From the NCBI GenBank assembly GCA_016235445.1, contig JACRLB010000007.1, positions 62,001 through 126,000 of the forward strand: a DNA stretch of 64,000 nt, in the 5' to 3' direction. A program made the position numbers and the translations under genes. Below are positions 5,495-52,482 of the stretch, piece after piece (within the stretch, counting starts at the first letter, position 1; each line of letters begins with the position of its first letter). The notes under the pieces were generated by a model. The model had not been told where the DNA came from, ran no database searches, and saw nothing but the letters and a program-made list of their open reading frames with translations. This DNA comes from Chloroflexota bacterium. Lineage in GTDB: Bacteria > Chloroflexota > Anaerolineae > Anaerolineales > Villigracilaceae.

Positions 5495-6319
5495 TTATTT
5501 CATTTCGCCTTCCGTGTCCGATGCTTCTGCTGAAATTTTTTGCGCGAAGAAAATCGGCAGGAAGGTGATGAGGATGACAATGGTTGCGACGACGTTCGTC
5601 ACGGGGCGGTCACGCGGACGGGATAGCTGGCTAAAGATCCAAATGGGAAGCGTGGTTTGCTGGCCTGCGGTGAATGTCGTAACGATGACTTCGTCGAAGG
5701 AAAGCGCAAAAGCCAACATGCCGCCTGCAAGCAAAGCGGTTGCAATATTGGGCAGAACAACGTGCCGAAAGGTTTGGAAGGAATTTGCGCCCAGGTCCAT
5801 GGAGGCTTCGATCATCGTTGCGCTGGTACGGCGAAAACGCGCAAGCACGTTGTTGTAAACGACAACGACGCAAAATGTTGCGTGGCCGATGACAATCGTC
5901 CAAAATGAAAATGGAATGTCGAGGCCGCCGATGGCGGTGCGCAGGGCAATGCCAGTGACGATGCCCGGCAGGGCAATGGGTAAAACCAAAAGGAAGGAAA
6001 TGGATTCGCGGCCAAAGAAATTACTGCGATAAACTGCCGCCGCGGCAAACGTGCCAAGGATGAGAGCCGCCGCTGTGGCAATCGCTGCAACTTGAAAAGA
6101 AAGCGTGAGCGAACGCCACAGGTCTGGGCGTTGCAGGGCCACGCCGTACCATTTCGTTGTAAAGCCCGGCAGTGGAAAGGTATACGTGGCTTCTTCCGGG
6201 GTTAGGGTGTAAAGAAAAATAATCCACATGGGAACGTGCAGAAAGAGCAGGGTTCCCAAAGCGGCAAGTGTTAAAGCCCATGAAGCTTTTGGGCGGGTAT
6301 CGGATGATTTAGAGAGCAT
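5495..6319 (-). CDS. potC: ABC transporter permease, spermidine/putrescine PotC type
   Basis: A 274-residue inner-membrane permease with six predicted membrane segments and the EAA loop [20 protein letters not shown] (about residues 180-200) that docks with the ATPase. It is the last gene of a potD-potA-potB-potC operon on the minus strand. I start it at the ATG at 6319, preceded by TTGGAG at a suitable distance; a longer reading frame begins with a TTG at 6331. Either way it overlaps the end of potB, implying translational coupling. Family membership points to import of polyamines or similar cations; exact substrate is inferred from the family. Confidence 0.88.
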
Positions 6320-7214
6320 CGAAAGCTCCAAGTTTACGGGCGATGAGCAGGTAAACCACCATGATGAGCACAGGGCCCATTGTCATGGCGGCGGCAAGCG
6401 GAATATTGCCGCCCGTTCCCTGATAGGAGAAGACGGCCTGCCCAACAAAGAATTTTGAATTACCGAGCGTTAATGGCACTATGAAATCACCCAGGGTTAA
6501 TGAGAAAGTAAATATCGAGCCTGCCACGACCCCGGGAAACGCCAGGGGTAAAATTACATTGCGGAAAGTTTGAAAAGGTTTTGCGCCCAAATCACTGGAG
6601 GCTTCAAGCAGGGAAGCAGGGACGCGTTCCAAAGCGGTTTGAATTGGAATGATCATATACGGAAGCCAGATATAAACAAATACGATGAACATCCCAATCG
6701 GCGAAAGAGACAGCGACGAGCCGCCAATGGCTGGAAAACTCAGAAGCCAATCCAGCACGCCCGTCAGGTGGAATAAATCAATAAACCACGACAAAATCCC
6801 TTCCTTGGCGAGGATCAACTTCCACGCATAAACACGGACGAGGTAACTGGACCAAAGCGGAATTGTCACGCCAATCAACAGCCAGGTCTTTAATCTTCGG
6901 GATGCAAATTTTGCAATGTAATAAGCGAGGGGGAAGGCAAGCATCGCATCCACAACGGTGACAATGGCCGCCATGCTTGCAGTGCGGAGGAATATTTCGC
7001 GGTTGGCGGGGTTGAATGTCTGGGCATACGTGCGCAGGGTAAACTCACGAACAATGATGCCTGTAAAATCATCTATTGAATAAAAGCCATTAATCAACAG
7101 TGAAAACAATGAGCCCAGGTAGACAACAAGCATGTAAAGAATTGGCGGGGTAAGGAAAATTGCCAAAACCAACCGCGGGCGGCGATAAAAATAAGTGGAG
7201 ACGCGGTTTAGCAT
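6309..7214 (-). CDS. potB: ABC transporter permease, spermidine/putrescine PotB type
   Basis: A 301-residue permease with a PotB-like N-terminus (one extra membrane helix after a basic segment), the large periplasmic loop after helix 1, and the EAA loop [20 protein letters not shown] near residue 215. It forms the membrane channel together with PotC. The gene starts 1 bp after the potA stop and its own end overlaps potC, so potA-potB-potC are tightly coupled. Nothing is unusual in length or motifs. Confidence 0.9.
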
Positions 7215-9971: not shown

Positions 9972-11141
9972 ATGACAGACCTGCCCATTCATCCTCTCAG
10001 CGAAGAACACAAAATGCTCCGCGATACGGCGCGTGATTTCGCCCAAAAAGAGATCGCCCCCATCGCGGCAGAATTCGACGAGAGCGGTGAGTTTCCACAT
10101 TCAACGATCAAAAAAATGGGCGAACTGGGGTTTATGGGAATCGAAGCCCCCGAAGAATACGGCGGCGCAGGCATGGACGCTCTCGCCTACGTTCTTGCGC
10201 TCGAAGAAATCTGCAAAGTGGACGCTTCGCATGGCACCATCATGTCGGTCAATAATTCGTTGTACTCACATGGCATTCTAAAATTTGGCACCGAAGAGCA
10301 AAAGAAAAAATTTGTCACCCCCGTCGCCTCCGGTAAAGCCATTGGCGCGTACTCCCTCACCGAACCACAAAGCGGCTCCGACGCCGGCACAATGAAAAGC
10401 CGCGCCACCCGTGATGGGGATTTCTACATTTTGAACGGAAGCAAATCCTGGGTCACCAGCGGGCCAGTGGCAAATTACTTTGTCGTCTTCATGATGACAG
10501 ACCCCGGGAAAAAGCAAAAAGGCGTATCCGCATTTTTGGTGGAAGGCAATACGCCCGGTCTCGTGCGCGGAAAAAAGGAACCCAAACTCGGCATCCGCGC
10601 CTCCGCAACCAGTGAGGTGATCTTTGAGAATTGCCGCATCCCCATCGAAAATCGACTCGGCGGGGAAGGCGAAGGCTTCAAGATCGCCATGACCGTTTTG
10701 GATGCAGGCCGCATCGGAATTGCCACGCAAGCGCTTGGGATTGCAGAAGCTGCCTACGAAGCCGCGAGGCAGTACGCGGGTCAGAGAGAGGCGTTTGGTC
10801 AACCGATTGGAGCGTTCCAGGGCATAGGCTTCAAAATCGCAGATATGAAGACCCGCATCGAAGCATCCCGCCTGCTGACCTACAACGCCGCGATTGCAAA
10901 AGAAAAAGCCAAGGCAACCAACGGACGGTATTCGCTGGAAGCATCCATGGCGAAATTATTTGCATCCGAAACCGCCATGTTCGTCACCCACCAGGCCGTG
11001 CAAATTCACGGCGGCATGGGCTACAGCAAGGAACTTCCCATCGAACGCTATTTCCGCGACGCAAAGATCACCGAAATTTACGAAGGCACAAGCGAAATTC
11101 AACGGCTGGTGATATCGCGCATGGAAACCAATCTTCGGTAG
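9972..11141 (+). CDS. Acyl-CoA dehydrogenase (short-chain/butyryl-CoA type)
   Basis: A complete 389-residue acyl-CoA dehydrogenase, the usual length of the family. Visible features are the N-terminal helical domain, the FAD-binding strand YSLTEPQSGSDAGTMKS (about residue 125), the middle beta domain, AYEAARQYAGQREAFGQPIG near 260, QIHGGMGYSKE near 345 and EIYEGTSEIQRLV near 372, with the catalytic Glu before G-T-S. It most resembles butyryl/short-chain enzymes of anaerobes that donate electrons to ETF. It starts a plus-strand group; the next gene begins 10 bp later but encodes an unrelated membrane protein. Confidence 0.94.
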   Translation: MTDLPIHPLSEEHKMLRDTARDFAQKEIAPIAAEFDESGEFPHSTIKKMGELGFMGIEAPEEYGGAGMDALAYVLALEEICKVDASHGTIMSVNNSLYSHGILKFGTEEQKKKFVTPVASGKAIGAYSLTEPQSGSDAGTMKSRATRDGDFYILNGSKSWVTSGPVANYFVVFMMTDPGKKQKGVSAFLVEGNTPGLVRGKKEPKLGIRASATSEVIFENCRIPIENRLGGEGEGFKIAMTVLDAGRIGIATQALGIAEAAYEAARQYAGQREAFGQPIGAFQGIGFKIADMKTRIEASRLLTYNAAIAKEKAKATNGRYSLEASMAKLFASETAMFVTHQAVQIHGGMGYSKELPIERYFRDAKITEIYEGTSEIQRLVISRMETNLR

Positions 11142-11151
11142 GAAAACCCCA

Positions 11152-13377
11152 ATGTCTTTGACGCAGATTTTTTTGATCGCCGCAATCATTATTGCCGCTG
11201 TAATTTTGGATTGGCTGTTGATTAAATGGCTGAAAAAAAAGCAGGGGACTGCCATTGAAATCAACACTTTATTCAGTGTAGTAAAACAAAAAACGGCCCT
11301 TCGGATCGCCCGGCGGAAGAGCGAAAAAAACTCGGCGTCTGAAGATGAAGGCCTGCCCCAACAAACTCCACAACCCCAAAGTCAGCCGGGAGTATCGAGC
11401 ATAATGAGTTCGCCGATTCGCAACACCACACTGCGCATTCTTGGGTTTATTCTATCCGCCGGATTGACCATCGTTGGAATCACATTCATGCGAAGGCAGG
11501 AAATCGCAACAGGCATAAGCTTGCTGGCTGTAGCCCTGCCGCTTTTTTTATCAGTCGTTCGCTCTATTGAAAAAAACCCGCTCACTGACGATGAAATTAC
11601 CCTGTTGAAACCATATCTCTCCCCGGGGTTACTCTTCCTGGCAACAATAAGCCTGACCGTTGCGCTTGTTTTCAACGTTACAGACTTCGCCCGCACCCAA
11701 AAGCTGGACTACACCGCAACAGTCGAATGGTTATTAAGTATTCTCAGCCTCACGATCGGTATTCTCTGGGTTTCGAAATGGAAACCCATTCACCCCCGGT
11801 ATATTTGGGAATGGATTAAAGCGAATAAGGCTGAATTCAGTTTAGCGACTGTGGTCATGGCCGCCGGATTGATCATCCGCATGATGGCTTTGACCGACCA
11901 CCCCTATCCATGGTCCGGCGATGAAGCCTCGGTTGGGTTAGACGCGCTCCGCCTTATGAATGGCGCGGTTACAAATTTATTCGACACAAGCTGGTCTGGC
12001 CAGCCGAACATTTCTTTTCTTCCCACTTCTTTCAGTATGCTGATTTTCGGAAAAACCATGTTTGCCGTAAAAATGGTAAGCGTTATAACGGGAACCCTCA
12101 GCATCCTAACGCTTTACCTTCTGGCGCGAGAATGGTTTGGGGCTGAAATTGCATTAATTGCCAGCGGTTTTCTGGTTGCCTATCCCTTCCACTTGCAATT
12201 CAGCCGCATCGGAGTAGACAATATCTTCGACTGTCTGATGGCGCCACTTGTGATCTGGCTCGTTTTCCGCGCTGCCCGGCTTAAGAGTTTGCCTGCCTAT
12301 CTTCTGGCGGGTATTGCCAGTGGACTAACCATTTACACCTACGTGGGTACAAGGCTCGTTTTGGCAATGGGGGTCGGCACAATCGTATATTTCGCGATCA
12401 AGCAAAAGGGTTATCTGAAAAACAACCTGTCACAGTTGGGAACATATTTGGCCGGGCTGGTCGTCACAGCCGCTCCCATGGCAACCTTTTTTATCAAACG
12501 TCCAGACCTATTCATGACGCGGCTTGGGCAGGAGGGCATCTTCCTCAACGGCTGGCTGGCCTCCCAGGTGGAACAGACCGATCAAAGCGCCCTGCAGATT
12601 CTGCTTGATCAGTTTTTAAAGACAACCCTGGTTTTCTTCGCCCAAAACGCGGGAAGTAATTTTCTGAATTTTGATCGTCCGTATCTGACAACATTGGGGG
12701 CGGCTTTCTTTTTAATCGGGATTACAGCCAGTTTCCGCTATTTCTTCGAAGAACGCTACTTCATTCTACAAATGTGGTTCTGGTCTGTGATGACACTGGG
12801 CGGCTTCCTGACAGTGAGCCCGCCTGCAAACACGCGGCTTCTTATGACAATTCCCGCAACAGGCTTATTCATAGCCCTGGGCGCAATACAAATATCCAAT
12901 GTTATGTTAAATTTGAAATTCAAACAAACATGGGTCTATGGCTTGAATTTCATTCTAATACTGGCGCTTGCATACCAAAACCTGTCTTTCTATTTTGGCT
13001 CTTATTGGCAGGGAAGATTTTTCCAGGACGCCAGCGGTGAATTAGGTATGGAGACTGGATTGGAACTGCAAAAACTTGGAGAAAATTACGATTATTATTT
13101 ATTTGGACTGCCGCGAATTTTTGCCGGCTTCCCGACCACTGATTTTCTAACCCCGCGAAATCCAAAATTTGATTTGAACGCAGAGTCGATCCCCGAATTA
13201 TCCCTTAATCCGAAACGAGGCGCGTTTTTCGTGGCCATACCAGAAAACCAGGAATTGCTTCAACAAGTGATGGAAAAATTCCCAGGCGGGTCTTATGAAG
13301 CGATTAAACGCAGAATGGACAGCGAGGTTCTGTATTATGCTTATATTTTGCCCCCTACTGCCATCGTTACCCCATAA
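11152..13377 (+). CDS. Large GT39/GT-C-like membrane glycosyltransferase
   Basis: A 741-residue membrane protein. It has one N-terminal helix (residues 1-22), a charged cytoplasmic stretch, then many transmembrane segments. The key loop PYPWSGDEASVGLDALRLM (about residues 254-272) carries the acidic GDEA motif of ArnT/PMT-type transferases, and HLQFSRIGVDNIFDC follows near 348, the region conserved in GT39. It would transfer sugars from a polyprenyl phosphate donor on the outer face of the membrane. The GT2 gene at 13513 could supply such a donor. The acceptor is unknown. Confidence 0.78.
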   Translation: MSLTQIFLIAAIIIAAVILDWLLIKWLKKKQGTAIEINTLFSVVKQKTALRIARRKSEKNSASEDEGLPQQTPQPQSQPGVSSIMSSPIRNTTLRILGFILSAGLTIVGITFMRRQEIATGISLLAVALPLFLSVVRSIEKNPLTDDEITLLKPYLSPGLLFLATISLTVALVFNVTDFARTQKLDYTATVEWLLSILSLTIGILWVSKWKPIHPRYIWEWIKANKAEFSLATVVMAAGLIIRMMALTDHPYPWSGDEASVGLDALRLMNGAVTNLFDTSWSGQPNISFLPTSFSMLIFGKTMFAVKMVSVITGTLSILTLYLLAREWFGAEIALIASGFLVAYPFHLQFSRIGVDNIFDCLMAPLVIWLVFRAARLKSLPAYLLAGIASGLTIYTYVGTRLVLAMGVGTIVYFAIKQKGYLKNNLSQLGTYLAGLVVTAAPMATFFIKRPDLFMTRLGQEGIFLNGWLASQVEQTDQSALQILLDQFLKTTLVFFAQNAGSNFLNFDRPYLTTLGAAFFLIGITASFRYFFEERYFILQMWFWSVMTLGGFLTVSPPANTRLLMTIPATGLFIALGAIQISNVMLNLKFKQTWVYGLNFILILALAYQNLSFYFGSYWQGRFFQDASGELGMETGLELQKLGENYDYYLFGLPRIFAGFPTTDFLTPRNPKFDLNAESIPELSLNPKRGAFFVAIPENQELLQQVMEKFPGGSYEAIKRRMDSEVLYYAYILPPTAIVTP

Positions 13378-42404: not shown

Positions 42405-42527
42405 TACGCGAACGCCCCCGCCAGCAGACTCTCAAACGACCCCTCCACCTGCCGCGTGGACTCACCCATCCGCCTCCGCAGAGACTCGACCCGCCTCGCC
42501 GCGCCCGCAAACTCTTCTTGCAGGCTC
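42405..42527 (-). pseudogene. hsdS 3'-end fragment, copy C, in frame
   Basis: The minus strand reads SLQEEFAGAARRVESLRRRM, then GESTRQVEGSFESLLAGAFA and a stop, an uninterrupted copy of the HsdS C-terminal helix. It differs from the live gene by a handful of residues, so it descends from another hsdS allele or a duplicate. It is joined upstream to a DUF559 remnant. Confidence 0.8.
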
Positions 42528-42805: not shown

Positions 42806-43987
42806 CTAACTGAACGCCTCCGCCAGCAGACTCTCAAACAGCCCCTCCACCTGCCGCGTGGACTCGCCCATCCGCCCTCGCAGCGACTCGACCCGCGCCA
42901 CCACGCCCGCAAACTCTTCTTGCAGGCTCAACGGTGGGACAGGTATCACCAATTCTTTCAGTTTTTCACCAGTCAAATGTGCAAACGTAACTTGTGAAGT
43001 GGAATCAACCAAGCCGCCAGATTGCGCCATCCACCAAAGTAAATGAACAATGTATTCTGGATTTGCTAGTTTTGAATTGGGACGTGCTCGATGTAATGCT
43101 TTTTGAAAATAACATTCTTCCATTTCATTACGCCAAATTGCGGCTCGACCAACTTCCCCACCTTCGCAAATCAAAACATCGCCATATTGAAGCCGAAATT
43201 CTTTTCGGTCTTTCTCGTCAAAATCCATTTCAGCAATATCAGACAAATCAAGACTATGCCATCGAACATTGAAATTTCGCAAATAAGGACGCTTGTTTTT
43301 GCCAGTTTGTTTTTTGTCGTCCAACATTTTGCCTAACCGAGTTTCGCAAACATCTTCAAATCTTGCCAATTCCCATTTTTTATCATTTACTCTTACGTGT
43401 CCAAACATCTCCAAAAACACGGACTGGAGCAGGGCATCGCCGAGATCGTGCGCAGTCCGCCGCAGTTGACGCAGGCGGTCGGCGCGTGCCAGCAGGGACG
43501 CAATCCGCTTTTGCTCGGTCAGCGGGGGAAGGGGAATTTCGTATTCAAGCAACTCAGAAGTGCGTAAATTAGAAATATTCGTTGTATTTGAAGACATAAG
43601 ATAGCATTTGTCTAAGAACTCTTTTGTTCTCATCCAAAATGCAAGATACTCTGGTGTAACTTTCTTGTTCGGGCGAATAACTGTGACAAACGCTCCAAAG
43701 GTTGCTTCATAAGGTAATCGGTCAACAATACAAGATTTACCAACAAGTTCTTTGCTATTGGCGGTAGAAATCAAAATATCGCCTTCATGAAGAAGTTGTT
43801 TTGAATTTGCCAAGCGATTTCTTGGAATAAAACGACGCGAATCCCAATTCACTACATCCTGAACCCCGCTTGTAGTCAAACAAGCCAAACTATTGTCAAA
43901 AGCAACTCGTGATGTTTCATCACCAGAGAAAGTAACTCCCCGAATTGCTTCGCTGATTTCGCCAAGTTGAACAGAGTCGTATTTCAT
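42806..43987 (-). CDS. hsdS: Type I restriction-modification specificity subunit
   Basis: A 393-residue HsdS. Two target-recognition domains are each followed by a conserved helical spacer: PLPPLTEQKRIASLLARADR (about 155-175) and PVPPLSLQEEFAGVVARVES (about 350-370). These helices set the distance between the two half-sites of the recognition sequence and dock onto HsdM. It overlaps the hsdM stop by 4 bp. Its 3' end is duplicated in three fragments downstream, indicating repeated rearrangement at this gene. Confidence 0.93.
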   Translation of the reverse strand: MKYDSVQLGEISEAIRGVTFSGDETSRVAFDNSLACLTTSGVQDVVNWDSRRFIPRNRLANSKQLLHEGDILISTANSKELVGKSCIVDRLPYEATFGAFVTVIRPNKKVTPEYLAFWMRTKEFLDKCYLMSSNTTNISNLRTSELLEYEIPLPPLTEQKRIASLLARADRLRQLRRTAHDLGDALLQSVFLEMFGHVRVNDKKWELARFEDVCETRLGKMLDDKKQTGKNKRPYLRNFNVRWHSLDLSDIAEMDFDEKDRKEFRLQYGDVLICEGGEVGRAAIWRNEMEECYFQKALHRARPNSKLANPEYIVHLLWWMAQSGGLVDSTSQVTFAHLTGEKLKELVIPVPPLSLQEEFAGVVARVESLRGRMGESTRQVEGLFESLLAEAFS

Positions 43988-45693
43988 TTCAACAACTTTT
44001 TGAGTTCAGTAATTTCATCAATCATCACCTGCTCCAAAAGAGTCAGGCGTTCAAGTGTTACGGACGGCTTCTCGTGATACACAGTATCCGTATCTGTCTG
44101 GCGATAACGACTCGCAGAGAGGTCGTACTTATTGGCTACTACTTTCGCTTTTTCAACCCAGAATTGGCGCGTGAGTCGGTCAAGTTCTGCTTGTGGCGCA
44201 GAGATTTGAGATTCAAGAGTAGTGACGAGTTGTTGGCAGGCAGATAAATCAGCGGCAGATTTACCATCAGAAACAGGATCAACTGCAAGGTCGAAGGTGA
44301 GGCGGTTAATATCCGCTTGCAACTTCAAGAGTTTCTCCTTCAACGGAGTCAACTCCTTCCGCAATTCATCCACGCGCAACTTTCTACTTTCCACGAACTT
44401 CTTATTCGCCCGCTTCTCCCAACAATTCACCACATCGGGAATATCATTCTCATCAATCGCCACGCGTTTATCGTCCAGCGAAAAACCATCGTGCGCCATA
44501 TCATAGAACCAAATGTCCTTCGTCTGCGCGCCGCGCGTGAAGAACAGCACCGCCGTACTCACCCCCGCGTACGGCTTGAACACACCCGAAGGCATCGACA
44601 CCACCCCGTCCAGCCGATTCTCCTCGATGATCCTCCTACGGATCTCCACATGCGCGCGGCTCGACCCGAACAGCACCCCATCGGGCACGATCACCGCCGC
44701 CCGTCCGCCCATATCCAGCGCGCGCAAAATCAAATGCAGAAAAAGCAACTCGCTCTTCGTCGTATCCGCTGGCAGCGTGGGATGAACGCCGCCCTTATCT
44801 ACCGCACCCTTGAACGGCGGGTTCATCAGGATCACATCATACTCGCGCTCATCATCGAACGACTTCGACAGCGAATCCATGTAATAGAACTGCGGCGACT
44901 CGATCCCGTGCAGCATCAGATTCATCGACCCAATCCGCAGGATGGTCATCCCCGAATCATTATCGAAACCCCGCAAATATTTCTTCGTCGACATGAACGA
45001 TCTTTCCGCCGCCGATAACTGGTCGCCGATCAGATGGTGTGCCTGCCCCTCGGCATCGTACTCCAAAATCCCCGCCGACGTATGCTTCTCCAAAATATAC
45101 TGGTGCGCGTTGACGAGAAACCCCCCCGTCCCGCCCGCCAGATCGCCAATGCGCTCGCGCGGCTTCGGATCCACCATCTGCACCATCATGCGGATAATAT
45201 GCCGCGGCGTGCGGAACTGTCCACCGCGCCCCGCAAACTGCATGTGACCCAGCATATACTCATACAGATCGCCCTGCACATCCTGATTCTGCTCCGCGAT
45301 CCTCATCTGATCGATCAAATTGCACGCCTCTATCAACAACCCCGCCTTATTGATCTTACACTGCGCCCCCTTCATATACTCCCCAAACGACGACTTCACA
45401 TCAGCCAGTTCGACCAACCCTGGGAAGACGACATTCTTCAGATGACTCAACGCCTCCTCCGCCTTCATCTGCGTCCAATACCCCCAACGCATCTCCTTCT
45501 TAACCGACGGCTGATACGTCGTCCCCTTGCGTTTTGCCTGCCTCTCAGCCGCATTCTCGCGGTCATCCAAACGCTTCAAAAACAACAAATACGAAAACTG
45601 CTCGATAGCATCCAGCGGATTTGAGAGACCACCAGTCCAGAACTTATCCCAGAGGGCATCTACTTGTGAGCGGAGTTTAGGGTCGGTGAGCAT
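43984..45693 (-). CDS. hsdM: Type I restriction-modification DNA methyltransferase subunit
   Basis: A 569-residue N6-adenine methyltransferase. The N-terminal helical HsdM domain (to about 130) is followed by motif I IGDLAGGTGGFLVNAHQY (about 185), the catalytic motif IV MNPPF (about 288), and a long C-terminal helical region that contacts HsdS. It modifies the host site and, with HsdR, forms the restriction complex. A copy of its first 16 codons lies 858 bp upstream at 46505-46551 beyond a transposase gene, so the original start region has been split or duplicated. Confidence 0.94.
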   Translation of the reverse strand: MLTDPKLRSQVDALWDKFWTGGLSNPLDAIEQFSYLLFLKRLDDRENAAERQAKRKGTTYQPSVKKEMRWGYWTQMKAEEALSHLKNVVFPGLVELADVKSSFGEYMKGAQCKINKAGLLIEACNLIDQMRIAEQNQDVQGDLYEYMLGHMQFAGRGGQFRTPRHIIRMMVQMVDPKPRERIGDLAGGTGGFLVNAHQYILEKHTSAGILEYDAEGQAHHLIGDQLSAAERSFMSTKKYLRGFDNDSGMTILRIGSMNLMLHGIESPQFYYMDSLSKSFDDEREYDVILMNPPFKGAVDKGGVHPTLPADTTKSELLFLHLILRALDMGGRAAVIVPDGVLFGSSRAHVEIRRRIIEENRLDGVVSMPSGVFKPYAGVSTAVLFFTRGAQTKDIWFYDMAHDGFSLDDKRVAIDENDIPDVVNCWEKRANKKFVESRKLRVDELRKELTPLKEKLLKLQADINRLTFDLAVDPVSDGKSAADLSACQQLVTTLESQISAPQAELDRLTRQFWVEKAKVVANKYDLSASRYRQTDTDTVYHEKPSVTLERLTLLEQVMIDEITELKKLLK

Positions 45694-45698
45694 TATTT

Positions 45699-45852
45699 AC
45701 CGTCCCGAAGGTCGAACACCCGTCCCGAAGGCTCGCGTAGAAAAAACCAGTCGCTTGGACAAACCCTTCGGGACGTTGGTTGCGCGAGTACAACGTCCCG
45801 AAGGGTTGACGTGTAGAATCTTGTCGCCTTCCAGAATCCTTCGGGACGGTTA
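45699..45852. repeat. REP palindromes at the 3' side of the RAYT gene
   Basis: Two full REP units (45721-45777 and 45791-45852) and a half-unit at 45699 lie between hsdM and the transposase gene. Arms are CGTCCCGAAGG and CCTTCGGGACG. The TAA stop of the transposase gene falls at the edge of the last unit. Confidence 0.88.
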
Positions 45853-46428
45853 ATCGAATAAATATTTCGAAATCTTCTCATAACTCTTCTCTTCATCCTC
45901 AACATCATTCACAAATTTGACATACTCATCCGCACTCGGAAAATGATCCTGCACAAAAACCTTATCCACCAACACGCCATCCCTCACCCCAATCCACTCT
46001 CGATAATTCGAATACGCCCAATCTTCGGGTCTCGTCACCAATCCCGCCTTGACAGGATTTCGATGAATATACCTGCAAAGTACCATCAAGTATTCCCATT
46101 TGTCCACGCACTTATGCTTGAAACGTCCCTCGAACAAAGTACCTGTGCGTCCCTGTTGCAAATTCAACGCCTGCACATATCCATTAAACAGCACCTGCAT
46201 AAACTTTGACAGGAGAACTTCGGTTTCCTGCCGAAAGAGAAAATGATAGTGATTGGGCATCAAGCAATAGGCAATCACCGTCACGCCAAACTTTGGGGCA
46301 TACTCCTTCACCAACCGCAGAAGATATTGATAATTCCCATCATTGAAGAAAATCTTCGCCTTCCCCGCCCCGCGATTATAGATATGATAATACTGCCCTT
46401 GCGCAAAAGCATCACCGCGATATGGCAT
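45850..46428 (-). CDS. REP-associated tyrosine transposase (RAYT, Y1-type)
   Basis: A 192-residue single-strand transposase of the IS200/IS605-related TnpA_REP group. Key motifs: YYHIYNRGAGKAKIFF near residue 13, the HUH motif in CLMPNHYHFLF (His-Tyr-His, about 55-65), and a later helix with the probable catalytic Tyr (FNGYVQALNLQQGRTG). The end has RYIHRNPVKAGLV and AYSNYREW, typical of the family. It is bracketed by REP palindromes on both sides, forming a complete REP-RAYT-REP unit. It has inserted at the hsdM start, between hsdM and the NACHT gene. Confidence 0.93.
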   Translation of the reverse strand: MPYRGDAFAQGQYYHIYNRGAGKAKIFFNDGNYQYLLRLVKEYAPKFGVTVIAYCLMPNHYHFLFRQETEVLLSKFMQVLFNGYVQALNLQQGRTGTLFEGRFKHKCVDKWEYLMVLCRYIHRNPVKAGLVTRPEDWAYSNYREWIGVRDGVLVDKVFVQDHFPSADEYVKFVNDVEDEEKSYEKISKYLFD

Positions 46429-46442
46429 GGTTACCTGCTAAA

Positions 46443-46500
46443 AACGTCCCGAAGGGTTGCGTGGATAAATCGAGTCGCCTGAACAAAACCTTCGGGACGG
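46443..46500. repeat. REP palindrome at the 5' side of the RAYT gene
   Basis: CGTCCCGAAGGGTT, then GCGTGGATAAATCGAGTCGC, then AACCTTCGGGACGG. It lies 15 bp upstream of the transposase start and directly against the duplicated hsdM 5' end. Confidence 0.88.
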
Positions 46501-46504
46501 TGTA

Positions 46505-46551
46505 CCCCAGAGGGCATCTACTTGCGAGCGGAGTTTCGGGTCGGTGAGCAT
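46505..46551 (-). pseudogene. Duplicate of the hsdM 5' end
   Basis: The minus strand reads MLTDPKLRSQVDALWG and then runs into the REP at 46500. It repeats the first 15 codons of hsdM (45649-45693) with two silent or near-silent base differences over about 46 bp. It starts 3 bp after the NACHT stop codon, which is where hsdM should begin in an intact operon. So this is probably the old hsdM start. Confidence 0.85.
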
Positions 46552-46554
46552 GGG

Positions 46555-49500
46555 TTACCTAAGCTCCTCTGAATCGCTTTCTTTTTTATCATTCTTGCCT
46601 TCAATGGCTAATATAAAACTGTCGATACCATCTGCGTAATCTAAACTTTCTTTAGTATTCATGGCTCTCAGCTCGCTTTGAAACTTCCTTGCTGCTGGTA
46701 TTGCACCTATATCTCTAAGCTTTGCAAAGTTTTGTATTATTACCCTTCGCAGATAAATATCTAGCTCTTCCTCCTCTGCATAGCCTCCATTTGCTAAATA
46801 AAGCAAAGCTTTTTTACGCACCTCAAAATCGCCAAAACTTATCAACCCCATCATCACGGCAACATCTGTATTCCAAGATATTTTCTGCTCTTTTTGCTTT
46901 CCTCTAAGTATTTGCCTGCATTTCGAATTACCTATCCTGCCAAGTGCAATGGCTGTCTCCATAAGAACTTCTGGGTCTTTACTTGAATTCAACAATTCTC
47001 CCAATCTATCTACAGCTCGGATATCACTCATTTGCCCAATTGCATCAATCGAATTTACGATAACAGGCTTTTCGGATCGATGGGTTGCTTCAATTAAATA
47101 TGGAATAGCTGGTTTGCCAATATCAACTAGCGCCTTTACAGTAAAAAGTGAGCTCACCAAACGGCTCTCAAATTCTTCTGATGCAAGCGAATCGATCAAA
47201 AACGGCACGGCTTCCTCACCATAATCAGTCATTAATTTGACAACTTGCAGATTAAGAAAGAAATCATTTCTCTTAAGAAGCCTAGCGAGATCGGGTAGGA
47301 TGCTCTTATCCTTTAATTTTCCGAGAACAATAACAGCCTTTGCCGCCGTGTCTTTGCTGCCTCCGCGTACTAGATTTCGCAACCCTTCAAGTGCATCGGA
47401 TCCAAATGAGACAATTGCATTGTCCAAACCCCATATATTAACTTCGCTCTGCTTTGTACTTCGTAGTAAATTTAAGAGCGCGGCAAGCCCTTTGTCACCC
47501 ATTTTGGATAAGGCTCGATAAACAGATGAATTGATAAATATATCTGCCGTTTTATCAAGAGGATCGTTCATTTCCTTAAGTAACATTGGAATAAATTTGG
47601 GGTCGCCTGTTTCTCCAATAGCATCAAAGACTTTGCTCTTTTGATTCGCAGGAAATTCATTGAGTGCTTTTACCAAATAAGGCTCTGCTTTTCTATGGTC
47701 TATTCTTGCCAAAGCAGATAATGCAATAATTTTCCGCCGAACATTTTCTTGCTCTTTTAACTCTTGTATTTCATTATCGGATATTCTCGAATAAGGCATA
47801 TGATCCCATCTCGAATACTCGTTTTGCATATCAAGAAACTCAGTAAGTGGTGCAATTGATCGTTTTCCAAGCACAGTCAACCCATTTACAACTTCACTCT
47901 GGAGATGAAAACTTTCAAGCAAATGGAGCAATAATCTTGATTTATGACCCGATTTGATCGCCTTCTCCACAAGGTAATCAATTGTCATTTGAATATTGGC
48001 AGGCTTTTTTTGCTTATTTAAGTCCCCAATAATCTCTACGAGATTTTCTGGAGAAACACTACTTGCCATATCTAACGCATGTTTAAACTCATCGGAAAAT
48101 CCTTCGCCTATTATTTGTTCTAGACGTTTCAATGTGATCTCATACACTTCTGTTTTGATAATTCGTTCCATGACAGACATAGAGCAAGCAAGCATCAGAA
48201 CGGCTGCCGTTTGCTTGTTTGCCCCTGCCACAAACTCAAGATACTTTGAATACCTCCGTAAATTCAGCCAAGAAGATTTGAGGTCGCTAAGCAGATTCAA
48301 GGCAAAAAATAAAACATTCCACCATTGTTTGATATTATCATCAAGCAAAAGTTGATTGTTATCGACAATTTCTTCTTTTAGAGCATAACAGGCAGCTAGA
48401 AAATCTCTTATCAAAGGGTGGCGAAAGCGAACAGGATTTTGCTTACTTCCATTAAAACGCGACGATTCAAGAATATAAGAATCCCGAGAAAATTCAATAA
48501 CATCGCTTCCACTTAAATCCTTTATATCCTTTGAGTTGATAAAACTCTCTAGCTTTTTTGTCGCCTCATCAAAGTCAAGTGCCAATATCTCATCCTGAAC
48601 CATTTCAAAAGCTAGGTACGATAATGCCAGACGCGTTTCACTAACCTGAACATCTACTGGGTTTTTCTTTCTCCAATTGTCAGGAAGCTTTGCCTTGTTC
48701 CATTCCGTTTTTAATAACCCACTGATAGACTTATCAAGAATTACAACATAGTCTCCAGCAAATACATTCTGCTGCACCATAAGACTCAACCAAAAAGGGT
48801 TTCGCCCTAATCCTCGCTCTCCAATCAAGTTATTGTTTTGAATTGTTGTAAAAACATCCTCGGTGATTTGATCGTTCTGCTTGTAAACATCAACAAAGTG
48901 CTTTACGCCTTCGTTTGTCAATTCCTTGACATCGAATATTTCAAAACCCAATTTCTCAAAGAGCTCAACATCAACGGATTGCCTAGCTGTGATTATCAAA
49001 GTGCATTTTTCATAGGCGTTAGATGTACTCCATAATTCAATCTCTCTGAGTAGTGCCATTCTGCTGTCAGGTGCAGTTTCGTCTAAGGCGTCAAGTAATA
49101 AAGAAATTTTTCCATCTCTCAATAATTGATCTGCGCCTTTACCTAATACTTTTCCGCTCTCCCCTCTACTCATCAAAGGTATCTTGTTTTTCAGTAATTG
49201 AAGTAGGCTTTCCTTGTATTCATCACAACGCAACAGCACAGGCATAGAAGACCTACAACCAAGCTTCCTGATTGAGTGCCGAGCTATTGAGAAAGCCGTT
49301 TGGGTTAAGCCAAAGGATTTGCCAGAGCCAGGCTCCCCAATAATCAAAATTTTTTGTCGTTCTTTACCGTAAACTAACTTATCAAAGCAATATCTACTTA
49401 GATCACTTTCAGTTTTGCCATTTGAAATTGTGATAAAGGAATCAACCAAAGACTCATTAGCTACATTAAGTTTTCTTCCTAATTTTATTTCTAACAACCG

Positions 49501-49725
49501 TTTATAGTGGTCTCGCAAATTAAACAAAAATCGAATTCGATGAAAGCGCCAAGTTAGCGCCAACTCCCTTTCTTCTTGAATAAACACATAAAGTACGCCA
49601 CCCAAAACAGCGAAAATAATTATAGGTGTAATCTCTGGTTGCTTACCCCAATAAACATCAATAAGTTTACTGGCTAAACTGCCAATTATTAGGTCAAGGA
49701 AAAATACAGTGATGCCTTTTATCAT
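46555..49725 (-). CDS. Membrane-anchored NACHT ATPase with HEAT repeats
   Basis: A 1056-residue STAND-type NTPase. Two hydrophobic segments (about 5-25 and 32-50) anchor the N-terminus. The NACHT domain has Walker A GEPGSGKS at 130-137, Walker B ISLLLDALDE at 207-216, a sensor-like LIITARQSVD, and the helical region with QNPVRFRHPLIRDFLAA near 450. From about residue 640 to 1010 there are repeated helical pairs of HEAT type (for example KVFDAIGETGDPKFIPMLLK and METAIALGRIGNSKCR). Bacterial NACHT proteins are known antiphage sensors. The gene sits between hsdR and hsdM, with 9 bp to hsdR, and is visibly AT-richer than its neighbours. No effector domain is evident, so the membrane part may be the effector. 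Confidence 0.88.
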   Translation of the reverse strand: MIKGITVFFLDLIIGSLASKLIDVYWGKQPEITPIIIFAVLGGVLYVFIQEERELALTWRFHRIRFLFNLRDHYKRLLEIKLGRKLNVANESLVDSFITISNGKTESDLSRYCFDKLVYGKERQKILIIGEPGSGKSFGLTQTAFSIARHSIRKLGCRSSMPVLLRCDEYKESLLQLLKNKIPLMSRGESGKVLGKGADQLLRDGKISLLLDALDETAPDSRMALLREIELWSTSNAYEKCTLIITARQSVDVELFEKLGFEIFDVKELTNEGVKHFVDVYKQNDQITEDVFTTIQNNNLIGERGLGRNPFWLSLMVQQNVFAGDYVVILDKSISGLLKTEWNKAKLPDNWRKKNPVDVQVSETRLALSYLAFEMVQDEILALDFDEATKKLESFINSKDIKDLSGSDVIEFSRDSYILESSRFNGSKQNPVRFRHPLIRDFLAACYALKEEIVDNNQLLLDDNIKQWWNVLFFALNLLSDLKSSWLNLRRYSKYLEFVAGANKQTAAVLMLACSMSVMERIIKTEVYEITLKRLEQIIGEGFSDEFKHALDMASSVSPENLVEIIGDLNKQKKPANIQMTIDYLVEKAIKSGHKSRLLLHLLESFHLQSEVVNGLTVLGKRSIAPLTEFLDMQNEYSRWDHMPYSRISDNEIQELKEQENVRRKIIALSALARIDHRKAEPYLVKALNEFPANQKSKVFDAIGETGDPKFIPMLLKEMNDPLDKTADIFINSSVYRALSKMGDKGLAALLNLLRSTKQSEVNIWGLDNAIVSFGSDALEGLRNLVRGGSKDTAAKAVIVLGKLKDKSILPDLARLLKRNDFFLNLQVVKLMTDYGEEAVPFLIDSLASEEFESRLVSSLFTVKALVDIGKPAIPYLIEATHRSEKPVIVNSIDAIGQMSDIRAVDRLGELLNSSKDPEVLMETAIALGRIGNSKCRQILRGKQKEQKISWNTDVAVMMGLISFGDFEVRKKALLYLANGGYAEEEELDIYLRRVIIQNFAKLRDIGAIPAARKFQSELRAMNTKESLDYADGIDSFILAIEGKNDKKESDSEELR

Positions 49726-49734
49726 TCAAACCGC

Positions 49735-52482
49735 CTACACTTGAAGCCTTCTAGTTAACTCAACTACTTCTTCCACTTCCTTATCTGTGAACCATCGCTC
49801 CACCGCATCCGCGCCAAACATATCCAGCGGCGGCTCGTATAAGTCAGCGGTTTCGAGATGGCGCTTCTGCAAGAACACGCTCTGCACCGTACGCAAAAAA
49901 CGAATTTGGTCGGCGTTGTAGTTGTGCCTAATAACGTAATCTTCAAACTGCCGCGCCACCACATCCTTGTAATCGGGCAGGTATTGCATGTCCAGCACCT
50001 GGCGCACCAAACCGAGAAAACTATCGGCGGTGTGGGCAAAAACTTTCTTCAAGTTTTCAGGCGTCACTTCCAGATCGCCTTCGCCGAGTTCTTTGGTCAA
50101 CGTGCGCTCCAGTTCGAGCAATTGCCAGTCGTCAATTTTTTGTCCCTGCTGAATGGCTTTGATCGTTGGGTGGTTAGCAACCAGCTCCAAAATGCGTGCT
50201 TCTACCAAACGGCGATATTCCGCCACGTACATTTTCTCTCCGCTCTTGGTGAGCAAAATGTAGCCGCTGATGGCGATGGAATCCAGTAAATCGAGTTCAA
50301 GGAAAGAGTCATAACGCATTTTGTTTTTCATACATGGTGAAAGAACATCTCGGAGCAAATTCAATTCATTGTTCGAGAATTCAACCAGTTTTTCAGGGAC
50401 ACACATGCTCTTTGCTTTGATTTCACCATCAGACAAAATCGTGTCTCGCAAACTCTGCGCATCTTCCACAATCGACCCTATGAGACCTGACAGGTCTCCA
50501 AGACCTGTCAGGTCTTTTTCACGTTTCTTCAACTTCAAGCGTTCCACTTTGCTGATGAAGGTCGCGGCGGCGACATCCACACCAGGGACAAGTCTCAAGT
50601 GCGGGGCGACTTTCAATTTCAGGAATTCAATCTTGCTCGGAATCAAATAGTCCCAAAAGGCGTCTGTCCACGCTTCTTCGATCTCTGGCATGTGCTTGCG
50701 AATGGTGAACGAGTCAGTCGGGATTTGTTGAATCTGCTCGCGCAGGTCAGCGATCACCTGTTTGCAATCGGGGTCTTTCTGGTCTTTGAGATAGGTCTCC
50801 AGCAATTTCAAGCGCGTATTGAAGATCGTCACCAACACAGGCGTGGATACATCAACCACTTCCTTCGCCTCCCGACTGAAGTTATTTTCCCAAAAATCAA
50901 TGATGAGAAAATCCTTCTTCTCGAAGTTCGGCAGTAACGCCAGATTGCGGCATGCCGCTTGCACCCGCGTCCCACGCCCGATCATCTGCTGTAACTTGAT
51001 CGGCGATTGCACAGGCTTCATGAACACAAGGTTGACCACCTCGGGAACGTCAATGCCCGTATCGAGCATGTCCACCGAAATGGCAATGCGCGGCTCGTCC
51101 TTCTTCTTGAACGCCTCCACCAGCGTGCCGCGATATTCGGATTTATGCGTGATGACCTTGGTCAGATTTGGGAATTGCGGATACATCTCATCGAAGGCGG
51201 ATTGCAGTCGCAAGGCATGTTGCTGTGTAATGGCAAAGACGATGGTCTTGCCTGGCAATTGTCCCGAAGAGTCTTTCTTGCAAACTTCCCAAATTTCTTC
51301 CCACTGCTTGCGCAGCGTGTCACGGTTACTGACTTCCCTTTCCAGTTCCGTGCCTTCATAGTTGATATCGTCGGGGTCGAGTCCTTTTTCGATCAGGGCG
51401 TTGCGCTCTTCCTCGGTCAAGTCCACGCCGTGAATGCCTTGCCGCTGGAACTTGGTCCGCGCAGAATATAGGTTGTAATCCACAAGAAATTTATCATCTA
51501 TTGCTTGCTGGTAGGTATATAAATAAGTTGGCTTGCCATCTGTGCAATCAAAGGCAAGGAAGGTATCGCGGTTGATGTAATTGGCGGGCGTAGCGGTCAG
51601 TCCCACCTGACGAGCATCGAAATATTCCAAGACCTCATTGAACTTGTTATAGATCGAACGATGAACTTCATCGAAGACGATCAAGTCAAAGAAGGCGGGC
51701 GAGAATTGCTCGAAGATATTGCTCAGCGTTTGAAGAGTCACCGCGTAGAGGCGGTTGCCAGTTTCGATTTTCCAACTATGCAGGCGCGTGCATGGTTCAT
51801 TGGGAATGAATTTCTCGAAGCCATCATCCTTTGCCTGTTCCACGAGTGCATCGCGGTCAGCCACGAACAAAATCCGCCGCGCCTGATTGGAACGCATGAA
51901 CACATCAATCAATCCCATCGTGGTGCGCGTTTTACCCGTCCCTGTTGCCATGACGATCAAGGCTTTGCGCTTACCACTGGCGAAGGCTTCTCCCACACGT
52001 CGAATGGCTTCGTGCTGGTAGGAACGGTCAACGATCTCGTTGTTGATTTCGATGGAACTGAGCGGCTTGGCATTCTGGCGGATATACAGCAGGTTTTCCA
52101 GATCTGCGAGCGTGAAGAATCCGAACACTTCACGCTTGTGCGCTATCCCCACGTCCACAAAATGGATTTCAAGTCCGTTGGCTAAAAATCCAAACGGACG
52201 AAACGATTGGTGCTTTTCGATTTCGGTGACGTAATGCGTGAGTTGTGCTTCTGCAAGCCGAACATCCACCGCTGTTTTTTTGGCTTCCACTACCGCCAAT
52301 ACTTCCCCATTTGCACGATACAACGTGTAATCCGATATCCCATTCCACGGCTCTTTATCGTACCCATCCACGGGAATTTCGATCTTCACTTTGGAATGGT
52401 CGCGCAAATACCAACCCGCGCTTTCAAGTTGCGGGTCAATCATTTCCTTGCGAGTTTGGTCTTCGGATATTTTGCGGGGCAT
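49735..52482 (-). CDS. hsdR: Type I restriction endonuclease/translocase subunit
   Basis: A 915-residue HsdR. The N-terminal PD-(D/E)xK nuclease is seen in ISDYTLYRANGEVLAVVEAKKT (D51, E66, K68). The superfamily 2 motor follows: Walker A MATGTGKTRTT near 180, DEVHRS, LTATPANY, and motif VI QQMIGRGTR. The C-terminal helical domain (EcoEI-type) binds HsdM. At 50481-50511 a perfect palindrome GACCTGACAGGTC/GACCTGTCAGGTC is read in frame as DLTGLGDLSGLIG inside the C-terminal region, a tolerated repeat insertion. It is the first gene of the operon hsdR-NACHT-hsdM-hsdS. Confidence 0.94.
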   Translation of the reverse strand: MPRKISEDQTRKEMIDPQLESAGWYLRDHSKVKIEIPVDGYDKEPWNGISDYTLYRANGEVLAVVEAKKTAVDVRLAEAQLTHYVTEIEKHQSFRPFGFLANGLEIHFVDVGIAHKREVFGFFTLADLENLLYIRQNAKPLSSIEINNEIVDRSYQHEAIRRVGEAFASGKRKALIVMATGTGKTRTTMGLIDVFMRSNQARRILFVADRDALVEQAKDDGFEKFIPNEPCTRLHSWKIETGNRLYAVTLQTLSNIFEQFSPAFFDLIVFDEVHRSIYNKFNEVLEYFDARQVGLTATPANYINRDTFLAFDCTDGKPTYLYTYQQAIDDKFLVDYNLYSARTKFQRQGIHGVDLTEEERNALIEKGLDPDDINYEGTELEREVSNRDTLRKQWEEIWEVCKKDSSGQLPGKTIVFAITQQHALRLQSAFDEMYPQFPNLTKVITHKSEYRGTLVEAFKKKDEPRIAISVDMLDTGIDVPEVVNLVFMKPVQSPIKLQQMIGRGTRVQAACRNLALLPNFEKKDFLIIDFWENNFSREAKEVVDVSTPVLVTIFNTRLKLLETYLKDQKDPDCKQVIADLREQIQQIPTDSFTIRKHMPEIEEAWTDAFWDYLIPSKIEFLKLKVAPHLRLVPGVDVAAATFISKVERLKLKKREKDLTGLGDLSGLIGSIVEDAQSLRDTILSDGEIKAKSMCVPEKLVEFSNNELNLLRDVLSPCMKNKMRYDSFLELDLLDSIAISGYILLTKSGEKMYVAEYRRLVEARILELVANHPTIKAIQQGQKIDDWQLLELERTLTKELGEGDLEVTPENLKKVFAHTADSFLGLVRQVLDMQYLPDYKDVVARQFEDYVIRHNYNADQIRFLRTVQSVFLQKRHLETADLYEPPLDMFGADAVERWFTDKEVEEVVELTRRLQV

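Follow-up and report, generated by a model that had tools for sequence, protein, structure and literature searches.

A REP-RAYT unit between two alleles of the hsdM start in a type I restriction-modification operon of a Chloroflexota bacterium

In a type I restriction-modification (R-M) operon of a Chloroflexota bacterium, a gene for a REP-associated tyrosine transposase (RAYT) lies together with its REPs between two copies of the hsdM start, which by sequence comparison are different alleles and not a simple target duplication made in this genome. With a probability of about 0.5, we attribute this layout to a one-sided joining anchored in a gene: the outer REP of a unit linked to an intact gene copy would have been joined inside one gene copy, and later cargo turnover would have changed the allele on the left. 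The layout, which recurs at unrelated genes, hints at an undescribed way for RAYT units to settle before genes. If such settling linked to gene starts were true, Y1 enzymes would have a gene-preserving insertion mode leaving gene-start copies of 20-106 nt. Units flanked by gene starts, here from Chloroflexota, a KSB1 bacterium and a planctomycete and at unrelated genes, would then record, as physical traces, the arrival of RAYT units at new places, thereby making the movement of these units testable from junctions.

The REP-RAYT unit and its operon

The window is the whole analysed stretch of 64,000 nt (contig JACRLB010000007.1, positions 62,001 to 126,000). On its minus strand the order is hsdR, a NACHT gene, an hsdM 5′ fragment, a REP pair, RAYT, further REP pairs, intact hsdM and hsdS (Table 1). 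The hsdM fragment begins 3 nt past the NACHT stop (46555-46557) and passes directly into REP (CACCGTCCCGAAGG). The original prediction, a Y1 transposase gene with REP palindromes on both sides between the NACHT stop and a spared hsdM, was borne out by the Pfam Y1_Tnp domain, the REP pairs and the whole hsdM behind the unit. Downstream of hsdS, a second copy of the hsdS 3′ end was observed at 42407-42526 (40 aa, 82.5% identical), and such copies also occur in several relatives.

Table 1. Features of the hsd operon and the REP-RAYT unit in the window.
Feature	Position	Strand	Basis
hsdR, type I restriction subunit, left border of cargo slot	49735..52482	-	Pfam ResIII, EcoEI_R_C, HSDR_N; PADLOC REase_I
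NACHT-HEAT protein gene, slot cargo here	46555..49725	-	Pfam NACHT, HEAT_2
Truncated hsdM 5′ end, 49 nt, left copy	46503..46551	-	Sequence comparison with live hsdM start
Left REP pair (REPIN), few nt from truncated hsdM end	46445..46499	.	DNA hairpin z -4.45
RAYT, REP-associated Y1 (HUH) transposase, 192 aa	45850..46428	-	Pfam PF01797; NCBIfam REP_Tyr_transpos
First right REP pair	45794..45848	.	z -3.42
Second right REP pair	45721..45775	.	z -1.86
Extra single REP arm adjoining hsdM	45701..45711	.	Sequence
Live hsdM 5′ end, right copy	45645..45693	-	Sequence comparison with fragment
hsdM, intact type I methyltransferase	43984..45693	-	Pfam N6_Mtase, HsdM_N; PADLOC MTase_I
hsdS, specificity subunit	42806..43987	-	Pfam Methylase_S

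The RAYT protein carries a Y1 domain (PF01797, E 2e-11, 44.5 bits, cut-off 23). Its sole NCBIfam match was NF047646 (REP-associated tyrosine transposase) with 73.9 bits and E 1.2e-20, which is below the cut-off of 80. Inverted REPs flank the gene on both sides. In single-stranded DNA folding, two of the three REP pairs beat all 200 shuffles (z -4.45 and -3.42), while the third folded less clearly (z -1.86, with 12 of 200 shuffles as good). The REP arm CGTCCCGAAGG was found 91 times in forward and 89 times in reverse orientation in the genome, compared to 6 and 10 matches of a reversed control, and most of the REP places listed were opposed arms about 40-44 nt apart. This type of RAYT is single-copy in the genome, the next Y1 gene being less than 40% identical. 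Judged from these sequences, the RAYT has its own REP population, and the unit is a candidate REPtron consisting of REP pairs, RAYT gene and REP pairs in a hypervariable slot between hsdR and hsdM.

With REPtrons as presented in PMC2817692, PMC3116915 and PMC8266576, the unit shares a Y1_Tnp protein, inverted REPs on both sides, scattering of the same REP in the genome and one gene of the RAYT type. It differs by its position between two gene-start copies and by the head of its REP, since the window REPs lack a GTAG head and the arm starts with CGTC. REPs with CGTC are said in PMC3733652 to have no dedicated transposase; contrary to this, a REP starting with CGTC, which may or may not belong to the CGTC families of that paper, flanks the RAYT at 45701-46499 of the window. 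In PMC8266576 and PMC6006769, RAYTs are described as mostly single-copy, domesticated genes. The former states that there is no evidence of tnpAREP mobility; the latter sees no formal evidence that they are autonomously mobile, yet reports horizontal transfer, and PMC3116915 predicts the REPIN to be the mobile unit. A plasmid search for the RAYT returned 11 records, all below 60% identity, and a scan of viral contigs with the RAYT of the KSB1 bacterium (L120) gave no match.

The hsdR-hsdM slot and the two hsdM starts

Among relatives, the content of the slot varies and includes NACHT, NUDIX, TIR, nSTAND1 and other genes. Across the family, gene content and remnants mark the interval between hsdR and hsdM as a hypervariable cargo slot in which remnants of hsd genes occur, at some loci without RAYT. 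Remnants of the hsdR 3′ end lie between cargoes at RAYT-free loci (G107, G131, G132, G172, G113) as well as at RAYT loci (G191, G038, G161). Fragments of the hsdM start lie between cargo genes without RAYT in G046 and G151, which are decayed loci without full hsdM; RAYT is thus not needed to make such fragments. In these two genomes and in G025 and G029, the operon is a shell, the bodies of hsdR, hsdM and hsdS being gone and their ends kept. Slot and remnants together show gene swapping inside an R-M operon. Some of the cargo genes are likely defence genes, which rests on their domains and position, as PADLOC gave weak matches or none for the seven cargoes analysed.

Type I R-M operons may embed an extra gene such as prrC. 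The extra gene inside the hsd operon is shared with them, while here a slot between hsdR and hsdM has a content differing between the genomes compared. In titles and abstract openings of literature on RAYT target site duplication, on accessory or embedded genes in hsd operons and on genes between hsdR and hsdM, the pattern was not found, subscription journals being mostly outside this scope.

The shells were also inspected at their junctions. In L184 (6609-7037 and 8619-10350), L183 and L191, hsdR codons ~1-63 are joined to codon 840 onwards, followed by cargo, hsdM 5′ end and hsdS 3′ end. The hsdR breakpoints are alike in the shells of G151, G046 and G025, which come from two genera. At L184 8619-8920 (oriented coordinates), an hsdM 5′ fragment between two cargo genes apparently continues directly into an hsdR 3′ end, matched weakly over 22 aa, which resembles a fusion of two operons by deletion. 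In G046, an hsdM fragment is probably fused to an hsdR 3′ end (weak match, E 0.02).

The claim that the hsdM start is present twice, before and behind the RAYT unit, held. Counted from the start codon, the fragment (46551-46503, the best block) agrees with the live hsdM start in 46 of 49 nt, and the first 46 nt contain two differences, each in a third codon position. A 24-mer of the hsdM start, allowing up to 3 mismatches, had exactly two matches in the 4.13 Mb genome, namely the two copies, while its reversed control had none across 152 family genomes, by which chance similarity was ruled out. Assembly error was ruled out by the identical layout in other genome assemblies, so that artefact or chance together are left with a negligible probability.

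A RAYT with at least 82% identity was found in six other genomes by a family search (152 genomes), and the same six were obtained from a scan of one genome per species (84,980 species; best 80 of 561 confirmed stretches). In all six, hsdR lies upstream of RAYT on the same contig, and hsdM follows where the contig continues. To the left of the REP, five of these genomes carry a fragment of the hsdM start, and in four of the five the fragment, the unit and hsdM are on one contig; in the fifth, G031, the right side is on a separate contig, which begins inside the end of the same RAYT. G161 has at most an ATG before the REP, and its contig stops before hsdM. Including the window, the fragment occurs in 6 of 7 loci with this RAYT vs 0 of 19 RAYT-free loci (Fisher 3e-5, relatedness ignored). 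The 19 are those holding an hsdR 3′ end and an hsdM start; among them, G172 and G113 retain only hsdR remnants, and some are frameshifted. Each of the 19 has one hsdM start, as expected for RAYT-free relatives in the original prediction. The breakpoint at +47 to +49 is common to the window, G016, G031 and G191, whereas it is at about +32 in G058 and at +105 to +109 in G038; the REP side of the junction is constant to a few nt although the fragment lengths vary. Two further contigs contain partial arrangements: one of G040 ends after an hsdM fragment and REP, and one of G051 carries REPs and a decayed hsdM start.

Concerning the origin of the fragment, the earlier idea that the resident hsdM start was simply duplicated in this genome was rejected by allele comparison. 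Over 46 positions, the window fragment has 2 differences from its own live start and 1 from the live starts of G017, G040 and G107. The G031 fragment is identical to the live start of the window and has 2 differences from its own. In six loci, the own live start was never the unique best match of the fragment, being tied best in G191, and 12 of 19 differences between fragment and own live start fell on third codon positions, the pattern to be expected had both copies evolved as coding DNA. Over the 24 nt compared, the G040 fragment is identical to several live starts, its own among them.

In G016 and G058 the fragment starts with TTG behind a NUDIX gene (Pfam), while their own live hsdM starts with ATG; in the RAYT-free G027 and G157, the single live hsdM start is a TTG directly behind a NUDIX gene. 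Of the NUDIX proteins, that of G157 comes closest to the one in G016 (66% aa), and the G157 live start also comes closest to the G016 fragment, with 3 differences vs 4 between this fragment and its own live start. From this pairing, with G157 nearest on both counts, it follows that the fragment is tied to its left-hand cargo. For the NUDIX cargo, the predicted empty site with one hsdM start abutting the cargo was thereby found; for the NACHT cargo there was no second locus, as the gene is in no other of the 152 family genomes at E<=1e-60.

RAYT and its surroundings also differ in their relationships. When the terminal 300 nt of cargo were aligned globally, pairs of loci agreed in 0-14%, with G016/G058 (66%) and G031/G161 (28%) as exceptions, while the RAYT DNA is 80-90% identical among loci with mostly unrelated cargo ends left of the fragment. 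Between the window and G016, identity is 88% for RAYT and 78% for the first 420 nt of hsdM; between the window and G038, it is 87% and 92%, respectively. The RAYT and hsdM distances thus disagree, which indicates partly separate histories.

Gene-start copies at other RAYT loci

The same layout was found at genes unrelated to hsdM. In L120, from a KSB1 bacterium (RAYT identity 51%), a copy of the initial 53 nt of a PPOX-class gene stands left of a REP-RAYT-REP unit and agrees in 53 of 53 nt with the right-hand start. A relative, G564, without RAYT, has a homologue of the upstream gene, about 30 nt and then the PPOX gene with one start; in L120, the left copy is separated from the upstream gene by a further 0.8 kb, which is absent from G564. 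At hutH, G122 and G034 have the layout with 29 and 34 nt. Thereby it occurs in 2 of 5 genomes with RAYT before hutH vs 0 of 27 RAYT-free hutH loci, the control being taken from the best 30 loci of 106 genomes with a match, with less than 1.5 kb upstream (shortest 158 nt) in 7 of the 27. In the planctomycete L080, a longer and partly diverged copy of a regulator start lies left of RAYT, measuring 84 nt at 95% by BLAST but 7 nt by extension from the start codon, because the first codons differ; this left copy stops about 45 nt before the first REP and becomes a diverged paralogue. In G120 (L263), 21 nt of the start of a second hsdM family lie left of a RAYT unit. The fragment ends at most about 10 nt from the REP in the hsdM, PPOX and hutH cases, and the measured fragment lengths are 21-106 nt.

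Two observations concern other gene parts. In L263 at 1225-1390 (RAYT on the plus strand), the left fragment is the hsdM start followed by an apparent hsdS 3′ end, the latter read by eye. In L093, a RAYT-REP unit is enclosed by a gene 3′ end present twice (39 nt, 87%), at 5875-5913 and 6618-6656.

To survey RAYT loci, a gene-start test with a REP filter was used, which was positive at 10 of 135 RAYT loci and at 1 of 416 control positions taken from these loci, and thus showed no gene-start duplication at 125 of the 135. Four of the ten were dropped by eye, namely L065, L231 and L243, whose matches were REPs or lay between them, and L242, with a fragment of an opposite-strand gene, while the single control match was kept. 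This curation left 6 of 135 loci (p 0.001): L080, L120 and two loci each at hsdM and hutH. They represent four gene contexts, and with each context counted once the p value is 0.013. L263 with its 21 nt fails this test and is not among the six. Without the REP filter, the gene-start scan gave 28 of 144, mostly REPs read as starts, vs 2 of 431 for swapped flanks, these two being one hsdM-family pair and one REP. In flank-repeat scans, 12 of 72 RAYT loci vs 0 of 108 controls were found at first, most of the 12 being REP-derived. A stricter general test gave 4 of 161 RAYT loci vs 2 of 254 controls, which is not significant (p 0.21), and its filter also lost L069 and L080. Within the genome of the window, the flank duplication that was to be looked for around other transposase copies was absent at five other Y1 genes. 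At 20 REP pairs away from RAYT, no flank repeat exceeded 18 nt and 2 of 20 had matches of 16-18 nt; these were picked as pairs from the genome list, some being near-identical copies, flanks included.

Origin of the layout

In the favoured one-sided joining, a unit would be linked on its right side to a gene start. Its outer REP end, which might stem from a nick made by RAYT or from arrest at the hairpin of the REP, would be joined to a second copy of that gene at a point about 20-106 nt into it, homology existing on the gene side only. The product would be the upstream neighbour, the gene-start fragment, the unit and the whole gene. In the R-M operon, the fragment would then act as right-hand homology arm as NACHT, NUDIX and other cargo were swapped, and its allele would hence follow the cargo rather than the live hsdM. 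We infer that the RAYT may catalyse the joining. As to features of homology-facilitated illegitimate recombination, the copies are different alleles at hsdM and identical in L120. The earlier suggestion of an acquisition by recombination or repair is a better fit than transposition of the plain Y1 kind. A model of integron-like cassettes, in which the hsdM start would serve as attachment site, was also considered and dropped, because the remnant ends vary.

The main and serious rival, which we nevertheless regard as unlikely on balance, is a passive stacking of cargo. The RAYT would then be one more slot cargo without an active part, and imported DNA would be anchored by hsdR or hsdM homology with its other end joined illegitimately, leaving hsdR 3′ and hsdM 5′ remnants. 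The slot can explain the hsdM remnant: hsdR 3′-end remnants stand between cargoes with and without RAYT, the left alleles follow the cargo, and hsdM-start fragments exist in the RAYT-free G046 and G151. The latter two are close to the case that was to speak against the original prediction, namely RAYT-free relatives with both copies of the hsdM 5′ end; what they have are start fragments between cargo genes in decayed loci. A published parallel are the T6SS effector-immunity arrays of V. cholerae, for which PMC5361080 proposes one-sided, homology-facilitated illegitimate recombination. Variable cargo behind conserved anchors, remnants of displaced genes and one-sided homology are shared with these arrays, while the window differs by the type I R-M operon and by the REP-RAYT unit as joining partner. 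Against a passive role, fragments among loci with a whole hsdM start are confined to those with the REP-RAYT unit (6 of 7 vs 0 of 19), they end within a few nt of the REP, and the layout is also present at PPOX and hutH, whose surroundings showed no hsd genes.

Still less probable appears a true target duplication, in which the unit would have transposed into the hsdM translation start and duplicated its first ~50 nt, which would be a behaviour so far undescribed for Y1 enzymes, the copies later diverging or being exchanged. The enrichment of gene starts over controls, the breakpoint at +47 to +49 common to four hsdM loci and the identical copies in L120 with the RAYT-free relative G564 are consistent with this. 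The latter copies look like a true duplication, with a second allele not needed, and plain transposition with target duplication is possible above all for L120. A fixed duplication length had looked possible and was ruled out by the measured junctions, which span 21-106 nt; moreover, left and right hsdM copies are different alleles and none of the 20 REP pairs of this genome showed such a duplication. IS200/IS605 elements (IS608, ISDra2) have a related Y1 HUH transposase, but make no larger target duplications according to PMC2817692, while the unit in the window and its likes have gene-start copies on both sides.

Going further than the favoured one-sided joining, REP-RAYT-REP might be mobile as a whole unit and settle at translation starts via an end made by RAYT and joined inside the target gene, the complete gene being rebuilt on the other side. 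We regard this only as a tentative proposal and somewhat doubtful. Between the left REP pair and RAYT, G191 (L178 ~11260-12198) and G038 (L179 ~10879-11688) carry an extra gene, encoding a TPR protein in G038, which may be an old passenger of the REP-RAYT unit.
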